Assembly (NCBI RefSeq): GCF_009749465.1
Contig: NZ_WBIS01000007.1
Span: 1-64,000, forward strand
Length of the DNA: 64,000 nucleotides
Direction of reading: 5' to 3'
Source of the DNA: Agromyces terreus
GTDB taxonomy: Bacteria; Actinomycetota; Actinomycetes; Actinomycetales; Microbacteriaceae
The notes beneath the pieces are model-generated. The model was not told the origin of the DNA. It saw only the letters and a list, made by a program, of their open reading frames with translations, and made no database searches. Below are positions 17,958 through 60,266 of the stretch, in pieces (position 1 is the stretch's first letter; the number at the start of each line of letters is the position of its first letter). A program made the translations under genes and the position numbers.

Positions 17958-18034
17958 GCCGGTCGAGGAGCGCAGCGTCTCGAGACCTGAGGGGGGGGGT
18001 CTCGAGACGGGCCTGGCGGCCCTCCTCGACCACC
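17958..18034. repeat. CTCGAGAC hairpin repeat between gabD and putrescine oxidase
   Basis: Inverted pair of half-units: GGTCGAGGAG...GTCTCGAGACC (17961-17986) and GGTCTCGAGAC...CTCCTCGACC (17998-18031), separated by a run of nine G. The outer arms (GGTCGAGGAG/CTCCTCGACC) and inner arms (GTCTCGAGAC, itself palindromic) can fold into a two-step hairpin. Same family as the elements at 30003, 34511, 35711 and 60230 and as the repeats inside murB. Confidence 0.8.
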
Positions 18035-28600: not shown

Positions 28601-29983
28601 ATGGGCGGCGACCTCGAGACGACCGATGCGGCGCGGGCCGACGCGCCCGAGCCGACGTTCGCCGACCTCACCACGCTCCGCGTCGGCGGTCCGATCCGGC
28701 GGCTCGTCGACGCGACGACGCAGCGCGACCTCGTCGACTTCGCCCTCGAGGCATGGGTCGACGGCGAGCCGTGGATGGTGCTCGGCGGCGGCTCGAACCT
28801 GCTCGTCGGCGACGAGGGATTCGACGGCACCGTGATCCGCATCCGCACGCGCGGCATCGAGGTGCTCGCGGGCGATGACCGCCGGTCGGGGAGCGACGGA
28901 GGAGCGTCTCGAGACCAGGTCGCGGGCGATGACCGCCGGTCGAGGAGCGACGAAGGAGCATCTCGAGACCAGGTCGCGGGCGATGACCGCGGGTCGAGGA
29001 GCGACGGAGGAGCGTCTCGAGACCAGGTCGACGACCCGGCATCCGTTCGCATCCGGGTGCAGGCCGGCGAGGTCTGGGACGACCTGGTCGCGTGGACCGT
29101 CGATCGCGGATTCGCGGGCATCGAGGCGCTGTCGGGCATTCCCGGATGCGTCGGAGCCGCCCCCGTGCAGAACATCGGCGCCTACGGGCAGGAGCTCGCG
29201 TCGACGCTCGTCGCGATCGAGTTCCTCGACGAGGGGGCCGATGCACCGCGGCGCATCACGGCGCGCGAGCTCGAACTCGGCTACCGCACCTCGGTGCTGA
29301 AGCAGGGACTCGCGGGCATCGTCGTGTCGATCGAGCTCGACCTGCACGACACGGCCGCCGAGCGTGCCGTGCTCGGCGAGACGCTCAGCCGCCCGGTCGC
29401 GTACCCGCAGCTCGCGGGGGCGCTGCACGTCGACGTCGGCGACCGGGTGCCGCTGGCCCGCGTGCGCGAGAGCGTGCTCGAGCTGCGCGCCTCGAAGGGC
29501 ATGGTGCTCGACCCCGACGACCCCGACACGTCGAGCGCCGGGTCATTCTTCACCAACCCGATCGTGAACGAGCACACCGCGCGGTCGCTGCCGGGCGATG
29601 CGCCGCGCTGGTACGTCGAGGCCGACCCGGTCGACGAGGTCGTGCCGCTCGCGGCGGGTCTCGAGGCGTCGCCGCTCGACCAGTTCCTCGCGCACCAGGC
29701 GTCGCTCGAGGCATCCGAAGCGCCGACGGATGCCGCACCGCAGCCCACGCTCGTGAAGCTGTCGGCCGCGTGGCTGATCGAGCACGCCGGGGTCGGTCGA
29801 GGGTTCCGCCTGCCCGGGTCGCGGGCGGCCGTCTCGTCGAAGCACACCCTCGCGCTGACGAATCGCGGGGGAGCCTCGGCCGAAGAGGTCGCCCAGCTCG
29901 CGAGGTTCGTGCAGAGCCGGGTGCAGGCCGAGTTCGGCATCCTGCTGCATCCCGAACCGGTCGTCGTCGGCCTCGACCTCTAG
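28601..29983 (+). CDS. murB: UDP-N-acetylenolpyruvoylglucosamine reductase with an in-frame repeat insertion
   Basis: Reduces UDP-GlcNAc-enolpyruvate to UDP-MurNAc with NADPH and FAD, for peptidoglycan. FAD-binding VLGGGSNLLVGDEGFDGTVI, GIEALSGIPGCVGAAPVQNIGAYGQE, Arg in GYRTSVLK, catalytic Ser in SSAGSFFTNPIV and the C-terminal Glu in EFGILLHPEPVVVG are intact. The 460 residues exceed the usual 340-370. Most of the excess is a 54-residue insertion at about residues 90-143, made of three tandem 18-residue copies derived from the genome's CTCGAGAC repeat; a second Ala/Glu-rich insertion lies near residue 370. Both fall between conserved blocks, so the enzyme is probably active. Confidence 0.93.
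   Translation: MGGDLETTDAARADAPEPTFADLTTLRVGGPIRRLVDATTQRDLVDFALEAWVDGEPWMVLGGGSNLLVGDEGFDGTVIRIRTRGIEVLAGDDRRSGSDGGASRDQVAGDDRRSRSDEGASRDQVAGDDRGSRSDGGASRDQVDDPASVRIRVQAGEVWDDLVAWTVDRGFAGIEALSGIPGCVGAAPVQNIGAYGQELASTLVAIEFLDEGADAPRRITARELELGYRTSVLKQGLAGIVVSIELDLHDTAAERAVLGETLSRPVAYPQLAGALHVDVGDRVPLARVRESVLELRASKGMVLDPDDPDTSSAGSFFTNPIVNEHTARSLPGDAPRWYVEADPVDEVVPLAAGLEASPLDQFLAHQASLEASEAPTDAAPQPTLVKLSAAWLIEHAGVGRGFRLPGSRAAVSSKHTLALTNRGGASAEEVAQLARFVQSRVQAEFGILLHPEPVVVGLDL
28868..29029 (+). repeat. Three tandem 54-bp repeats inside murB
   Basis: Units at 28868-28921, 28922-28975 and 28976-29029 differ by only a few bases. Each contains the half-site CGGTCGAGGAGCGAC...GTCTCGAGACCA of the intergenic hairpin family and is read as GDDRRSRSDGGASRDQVA-like peptide. 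Unit length is a multiple of three, so the frame is kept. Confidence 0.92.
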
Positions 29984-30002
29984 CGAGGGCCCGGCGCACT
30001 CG

Positions 30003-30242
30003 CCGGTCGAGGAGGCGCGCCAGCGCCGTCTCGAGACCAGCGGCGATTCCGTGTCATGTGGTCTCGAGACGCTCCTGCGTCGCTCCTCGACCGGCGGGGC
30101 TCCTGCGTTCCGGGGTCCGCCGGTCGAGGAGGCGCGCCGGCGCCGTCTCGAGACCAGCGGCGGTTCCGTGTCACGTGGTCTCGACACGCTCCTGCGTCGC
30201 TCCTCGACCGGCGGGGCCCCTGCGTCGCTCCTCGACCGGCGG
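30003..30242. repeat. Cluster of CTCGAGAC hairpin repeats after murB
   Basis: Two near-identical hairpin units of about 93 bp (30003-30095 and 30120-30212), each running from CCGGTCGAGGAGGCGCGCC through GTCTCGAGACCAGCGGCG to CGCTCCTCGACCGGCGGGG (the second unit has CTCGACAC in its right half), and a further right half-unit at about 30222-30242. They fill the 262-bp gap between the convergent murB and small membrane protein genes, and probably act as transcription barriers. Confidence 0.85.
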
Positions 30243-30245
30243 GTG

Positions 30246-30692
30246 CTATCGCGCGCCGTGGTGCACGGGCGGCCGCGGGGGACCTGCCACGGCGGGAGCG
30301 GCCTTCGCCGTTCGGGCGCGTTCGCCGCGGCGGATGAGCCCGACGACGCCGAACAGGGCGACGACGACGCCGATCGCGATGAGCGCGAACAGCGCGGCCG
30401 CGAGCGGGCTGAGCACGGCGAGCCATTCGCCGACGTCGGCACGTCGTCCAGGATCGACCAGGATCCAGAGGGTGAGCGCGGCCGCACCGCCGAAGATGAG
30501 TGCCCACACGAGGGCACCCCATCGGATGGTCGGGCGAGCCACGGTCGCGGCCTCGGCGGCCGCGGCCCCGACGGTCTTGGTCTCGACGGCCAAGGTCTCG
30601 ACCGCCGCGGTCTCGACCGCCGCGGTCTCGACCGCCTCGGAGTCGGAGCCGGCGTTGGGGTTCGGGTTCGTGTCTGGCATGTGCTCGCTCAC
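30246..30692 (-). CDS. Small membrane protein of unknown function with a VETAA-type repeat
   Basis: 148 residues. Hydrophilic N-terminus with a degenerate pentad repeat (EAVETAAVETAAVETLAVET) coded by 15-bp tandem DNA repeats at about 30583-30645, then two hydrophobic segments: WGALVWALIFGGAAALTLWILV and LAALFALIAIGVVVALFGVVG (approximate), then a basic C-terminal tail. GTG start at 30692 overlaps the PspC gene stop (GTGA), so it is coupled to that gene. I do not recognise a family; a partner in the PspC envelope system is likely from coupling. Confidence 0.7.
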   Translation of the reverse strand: MSEHMPDTNPNPNAGSDSEAVETAAVETAAVETLAVETKTVGAAAAEAATVARPTIRWGALVWALIFGGAAALTLWILVDPGRRADVGEWLAVLSPLAAALFALIAIGVVVALFGVVGLIRRGERARTAKAAPAVAGPPRPPVHHGAR

Positions 30693-34510: not shown

Positions 34511-34712
34511 CCGGTCGGGGCGTCCCCGTCGGTCGAGGAGCGAAGCGTCTCGAGACCTGCCGGGGGTCTCGAGACGGCGCCGGCGCGCCCCCTCGACCTG
34601 CGCCCGCCCCGCCGGTCGAGGAGCGAAGCGTCCCCCGCCGGTCGAGGAGCGAAGCGTCTCGAGACCTGTCGGGGGTCTCGAGACGGCGCCGGCGCGCCTC
34701 CTCGACCGGCGG
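34511..34712. repeat. Cluster of CTCGAGAC hairpin repeats between convergent genes
   Basis: Two full hairpin units (34531-34598 and 34638-34709) with a truncated left half-unit between them (34613-34632) and a degenerate one at 34511-34520. Arms are CCGGTCGAGGAGCGAAGC / GTCTCGAGACC and their complements. Lies between the convergent response regulator and the DUF1990 gene, occupying almost the whole gap. Confidence 0.85.
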
Positions 34713-35648: not shown

Positions 35649-35710
35649 CCCTCGATCCTGTCAGGCCTTCCGCGGTCTGCCGTACCGAGGCCGGGAGGTC
35701 TCGGGATGCT

Positions 35711-35760
35711 GCGCGCCTCGACCGGCGCGATGGGGCAAGCCGGTCGAGGAGCCGCGCCGG
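35711..35760. repeat. Outward-facing pair of CTCGAGAC-family half-sites
   Basis: GCGCGCCTCGACCGG (35711-35725) and CCGGTCGAGGAGCCGCGC (35740-35757) form an inverted repeat around a 14-nt spacer in the gap between the arr and DUF1990 genes. The central GTCTCGAGAC part of the family is missing. Confidence 0.65.
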
Positions 35761-60229: not shown

Positions 60230-60266
60230 TCGGTCCAGGAGGCGCTCCGGCGCCGTCTCGAGACCA
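60230..60266. repeat. Half-unit of the CTCGAGAC repeat between rplK and rplA
   Basis: CGGTCCAGGAGGCGCTCCGGCGCCGTCTCGAGACCA-like half-site (60230-60266) in the 130-bp leader of rplA. It can form a GGCGCTCC/GGCGCC-type short hairpin. The matching right half is absent. Confidence 0.7.

Follow-up and report, generated by a model that had tools for sequence, protein, structure and literature searches.

The locus raises the question of how a short repeat that lies mostly between genes came to be read as part of a cell-wall enzyme. In the window, the whole stretch of 64,000 nucleotides analysed here, which belongs to contig C25 of an Agromyces genome (3.71 Mb, 27 contigs), murB carries an array of repeat units within its reading frame (Table 1). 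Very probably, the array is the product of a dispersed, mostly intergenic repeat that now and then becomes part of a reading frame, persists where a loop tolerates it and can be expanded there by tandem duplication.

The gene is recognised by the Pfam domains PF02873 (MurB_C) and PF01565 (FAD_binding_4) in its product and by matches to MurB chains of the PDB (best E 6.2e-69); the ATG at 28601 was chosen by us as the start, the listed open reading frame opening upstream at a GTG (28517). The original prediction of three 54-bp units in frame is borne out by the open reading frames, by TRF (score 302) and by an alignment of the units, and the array is confirmed at the place given for it (28868-29029), with measured limits of 28866-29030. 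The units share one orientation, and the later copies are 95-96% identical to the first. Each contains a 33-bp element, GGTCGAGGAG...TCTCGAGACC, and the translation reads (L/V)AGDDRRSGSDGGASRDQ plus two close variants; the description of the added residues as mostly charged overstates the composition, R, D and E making up 23 of the 54, under half. Elsewhere in this genome, at C8:19011 and C25:95803, stand 33-mers identical to the third element. Every unit starts with TCG, and these three bases are seen again at 29028-29030, right after unit 3, possibly marking a 3-bp duplication or slippage junction. Tandem repeats are prone to mis-assembly and the number three comes from one assembly, yet an assembly or sequencing artefact is very improbable: the units differ pairwise at 2-3 of 54 bases, their junctions are in frame, and comparable captures are found in other genomes.

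Table 1. The murB gene, its repeat array and further copies of the element in the window.
Feature	Position	Strand	Remarks
murB (UDP-N-acetylenolpyruvoylglucosamine reductase)	28601..29983	+	ATG to stop; ORF list, Pfam, PDB matches
murB tandem unit 1	28866..28919	+	54 bp = 33-bp element + 21 bp of neighbouring loop
murB tandem unit 2	28920..28973	+	54 bp
murB tandem unit 3	28974..29027	+	54 bp
33-bp element copy 1, murB	28884..28916	+	GGTCGGGGAG, 1 base off strict pattern
33-bp element copy 2, murB	28938..28970	+	
33-bp element copy 3, murB	28992..29024	+	
Two inverted element pairs 3' of murB, in 117-bp tandem	30001..30225	.	30005-30038 +, 30060-30092 -, 30122-30155 +, 30177-30209 -
Inverted element pair outside called genes	17961..18031	.	
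Element cluster, both orientations, outside called genes	34531..34707	.	
Degenerate element outside called genes	35697..35723	-	
Degenerate element outside called genes	60232..60265	+	

In the three PDB alignments displayed, the match ends at query residue 88 and restarts at 144 or 151, and in E. coli MurB (2mbr) a single residue, 71, bridges the turn that holds the insert. The AlphaFold model, built on a 32-row alignment (mean pLDDT 80.2, with 228 of its 460 residues scoring at least 90), falls below 50 at residues 98-141, between the strands at 86-89 and 148-154. The expected loop position is thus recovered as a turn both against solved MurB structures and in the model. The pLDDT values hint weakly at disorder in the insert, since an insert that no aligned relative shares would score low in any case. 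A disorder scale was applied to 12 typed elements, 11 of them with the used frame marked. That frame came first or second in 9 of the 11; the frame of one SNF2 element ranked third and that of the MurB unit fifth of six, the latter a point against the preferred reading, and the ranking was not used as evidence of frame choice. The MurB turn is length-tolerant in general, because some MurBs of other genera have long loops of different sequence.

The element of the murB units belongs to a dispersed family. The strict pattern GGTCGAGGAG-N4-34-TCTCGAGACC matches 251 times in this genome, nested matches included, against none for the reversed control; a tighter pattern of the element matches 16 times, and the 12-mer GGTCGAGGAGCG occurs 214 times against 2 for its control. 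By a different counting method, 129 non-redundant strict copies were taken from the window and from stretches of the same genome, copies less than 120 bases from a stretch end being dropped; 118 of these fall outside gene calls, 11 within them. Three of the 11 were taken by eye for artefacts in which a gene call reaches into the sequence upstream of its start, which leaves 8 copies in 5 genes: murB, an SNF2-like gene, hrpA, a penicillin-acylase homologue and protease II. The calls at L173 and L190:3899-5641 were discarded by eye on this ground. The claim that the half-site is found elsewhere only between genes stands for two-sided matches in the window and not for the genome. In the window, where genes were called by codon usage trained on 19 long window ORFs, a loose two-sided pattern gives three rows inside murB and 15 others, all outside called genes; genome-wide, copies sit inside other genes as well.

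Copies outside genes fall in convergent (44), tandem (58) and divergent (13) spacers, with 3 at an edge, and the window itself has 7 convergent, 40 tandem and 7 divergent gene pairs. Convergent spacers are commoner among copies with two neighbours (44/115) than among window gene pairs (7/54), a comparison in which copies of the same spacer are counted apart and are not independent. Among the copies listed, monomers measure 27-41 bp and often form inverted pairs, the two pairs folded being 76 and 97 bp long. The inverted pair at 30001-30097 folds with a z of -6.9, against -0.14 for two murB units and -0.32 for a single element; unlike intergenic inverted pairs, the murB units form no strong hairpin. 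The pairs lying 3' of murB, about 1 kb off, are the nearest possible donors of its element. Two further repeats are recorded here as observations in their own right. The 8-mer CGGATGCC occurs 85 times on both strands of the whole window (6 for the reversed control), and some relatives show it in a loop of MurB, protease II or SNF2 (L018, L226-L228, L261); a 15-bp tandem repeat of 6.7 copies at 30541-30640, within a minus-strand gene (30249-30674), codes for AVETA-like repeats.

The MurB loop was compared across 60 Agromyces genomes, one per species, of which this genome is G000. A MurB match was obtained in 59 (none in G021) and 58 stretches were parsed, that of G051, at a contig end, being left out. 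The stretch from GGGSN to SGIPG has a median of 70.5 residues (n = 58) and is longest here, at 121, which identifies the murB array as an insertion. Elements are recognised by pattern in the loops of this genome (three), G016 (one), G020 (one) and G013 (two); the murB flanks examined hold none, and shuffles of these four gave 0.0. The remaining 54 of 58 loops are element-free by pattern, including the short loop of G040, the nearest relative by MurB sequence (86%), a distribution that supports the proposal that an intergenic repeat was captured and is now coding sequence. The genome of G016 holds 14 copies within 3 mismatches, that of the MurB loop among them (control 0). Counting the murB copies, the 18-mer carried by the G013 and G020 elements matches 5 times in the first genome and 2 times in the second (control 0). 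On a MurB tree built without the loop, the distribution needs at least 3 changes; G020 and G013 are sisters with 94% identical MurBs and an insert in common, which was probably inherited rather than captured twice. A long loop does not in itself point to capture, because long loops without a recognised element exist (G055, 97 residues; G010, 87; G048 and G037, 85). The G058 loop, which looks by eye like a decayed element, fails the pattern and is uncounted, and two extra matches in G041 that resemble coding repeats are open in several frames and were judged intergenic by eye. A CCTTCGACAGGCTCAGG-like motif in the MurB loops of G046, G035, G014 and G056 (L049, L050, L062, L033) is perhaps a second captured repeat and was not counted as a capture.

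The opposite direction of descent, in which the peptide is ancestral to MurB and the intergenic copies are chance likenesses or derived from murB, has a next to negligible probability and appears already contradicted by sequence comparison, which brought up nothing in its favour. The repeat is far too widespread, with its 251 genomic matches, and its element too often missing from the Agromyces loops; conservation of the peptide in distant MurBs, which the original prediction had named as the mark of an old protein feature, was looked for in 77 loci of other genera, where the repeat peptide (up to 3 substitutions) matched five times and never in the murB stretch.

Elements also stand in frame in other protein genes of the same genome: an SNF2-family helicase, HrpA (two sites), protease II, the penicillin-acylase homologue and LigD, the last found in addition to the five genes of the 129-copy count. 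The SNF2 element lies between Walker A (GLGKT) and the next conserved block (PFLVVAPTSV), and that of LigD at residues 481-507 of the reading frame used, between the phosphoesterase and ligase domains (Pfam). The SNF2 stretch has 111 residues here against 41, 41, 44 and 43 in G044, G004, G055 and G020, and the protease II stretch 83 against 38-55 in five relatives. HrpA site 1 is element-free in G040, G055, G004 and G044; site 2 is visible in three relatives, with no evident element, and HrpA of G020 has an element-like stretch that was judged by eye to be decayed.

The SNF2 loop was sought in 57 genomes, G017, G049 and G052 being left out for weak matches only, and parsed in 56, G011 failing with a match that starts 58 bases from a contig end. 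By pattern, nine of the 56 loops carry elements (G000, G029, G008, G040, G059, G010, G056, G045, G012). The stretches hold 20 elements in all, whereas their flanks (33,596 bp) hold none and shuffles gave 0.0. Stretches without an element measure 40-56 residues in the genomes with printed lengths; that of G059 (L257) reaches 186, with many tandem elements in both orientations, and the insert of G029 is tandem-expanded as well. G040 carries an element of its own, one mismatch from the searched repeat and one of 6 such places in that genome. To account for the SNF2 distribution, a minimum of 7 gains or losses is needed on the murB tree, which stands in for a species tree and on which such counts depend; the inserts of G000 and G008 are alike, as are those of G029 and G012, and either likeness may be due to inheritance. 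The MurB capture thus looks like part of a pattern across several genes and species of the genus, a recurring process rather than a one-off event. GTCGAG in native codons at the SNF2 site resembles the element start, a lead at most. In G018 the SNF2 match appears with equal scores at both ends of one contig (C1:7224 and C1:3680019), perhaps because the assembly is circular and its ends overlap unresolved.

All six frames are open in each of eight copies translated from this genome, so that a copy landing in a gene in the right register could be read through. The reading frame is open through the site in 56 of 57 SNF2 and 58 of 59 MurB stretches, both failures lying near contig ends; as the stretch parser required an open frame, the weight of these figures rests on the fewness of failures. 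The near-absence of failures argues for a frame that matters, and hence for translation of the insert. Translational bypass, in which ribosomes hop over the element, has precedents in the byp elements of yeast mitochondria and in gene 60 of phage T4, and the shortness of the elements and the strong folding of an inverted pair inside the SNF2 gene (z -5.3) would suit it. It would, however, tolerate frame-breaking inserts, contrary to the nearly universal openness of the SNF2 and MurB stretches, and the murB units lack a strong hairpin; we regard it as extremely unlikely.

On the preferred reading of in-frame capture, copies would survive where extra residues are tolerable, as in a beta-hairpin turn, in loops or in an interdomain linker. 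In MurB, the 33-bp element would have entered the turn that joins the strand with GIEV at its end to the strand VRIRVQAGE; the element and some 21 bp of adjacent loop would then have been tandemly duplicated to three copies, presumably by slippage, and these may since have diverged at single bases. The resulting insert is probably translated, disordered and nearly neutral. Retention for a function is improbable: on that view a disordered segment rich in Asp, Arg, Ser and Gly would tune MurB, as similar ones would in helicases, and the number of units would provide an adjustable length. Such a role could account for three in-frame copies in a gene that is essential in model bacteria, for the entry of the same loops in several lineages, for an insert retained in G020 and G013 while their MurBs diverged, and for the tandem expansion of SNF2 inserts in G059 and G029. 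Against it, same-site inserts differ between species in sequence, orientation or frame, none is recognised by pattern in most MurB and in 47 of 56 SNF2 loops, and most base differences among the murB units change an amino acid, in keeping with weak constraint.

The Y1 (RAYT) transposase, PF01797, was found in none of the 60 Agromyces genomes and in 5 of 14 control genomes. A rather tentative extension is that a RAYT-less palindromic repeat system re-enters the same few protein loops, above all the SNF2 ATPase-core loop, these being either insertion hot spots for whatever moves the repeat or places where a disordered peptide is repeatedly selected.

In the literature searched, no title or abstract dealt with repeats of this kind, either in Agromyces or elsewhere in the Microbacteriaceae; PMC5217419, considered as a report on palindromic repeats, was rejected, the word in the text concerned being part of the CRISPR abbreviation. 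The findings suggest that non-coding repeats recurrently become protein sequence in a high-GC actinobacterial genus. Across dozens of related genomes, one homologous loop is empty in some, holds a single capture in others and a tandem expansion in yet others; this natural series bears on whether captured repeats are tolerated or selected and on the origin of new loops and disordered segments.

Among known systems, the Rickettsia palindromic elements (RPEs) are described as dispersed repeats that occupy intergenic sites and also lie in frame within genes for conserved proteins (PMC2229807), and the Agromyces element is like them in both respects; an RPE-bearing guanylate kinase is reported in the same source to be translated and active, with altered substrate affinity. 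Compared by description, RPEs differ in belonging to an intracellular alphaproteobacterium and in their length of 105-146 bp, with long stem-loops (PMC2229807), as against an actinobacterium and the short monomers seen here. Length is nevertheless no strict divide, because RPE-4 and RPE-6 have been equated with short CGTC REPs (PMC3733652). ERIC and the 107-bp Correia form, MITEs with ORFs that are given as non-autonomous and fused in frame to genes (PMC2229807), share the in-frame position within genes and have longer units.

A resemblance in size and distribution is seen to REPs of the GTAG and CGTC families, described as 20-40 bp long, mostly extragenic, single or in inverted dimers, and in some cases intragenic (PMC3733652). 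Like them, the Agromyces element is of the 20-40 bp class, of high copy number by the strict pattern, mainly extragenic and mostly in convergent or tandem spacers, the non-independence of same-spacer copies applying here too. Many REP-bearing genes code for DNA- or RNA-acting enzymes, including helicases and a DNA ligase, and inserts of 43 to 82 residues composed of clustered repeats are reported (PMC3733652). Unlike REPs, the listed Agromyces copies begin with GGTC and end with GACC, and by eye show no terminal GTAG or CGTC, although these ends are fixed by the search pattern itself and the true limits of the element may differ; both tetranucleotides are seen by eye internally in some variants. 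Unlike REP/RAYT pairs, the repeat is accompanied by no Y1/RAYT in the genomes searched. A same-site REP is reported in one case, recB of X. campestris and X. oryzae (PMC3733652), whereas in Agromyces elements recur in the same loops of MurB and SNF2 in several species. To the RPE and REP precedents these results add an actinobacterial family, found without a RAYT, whose elements lie in the same loops in several species.
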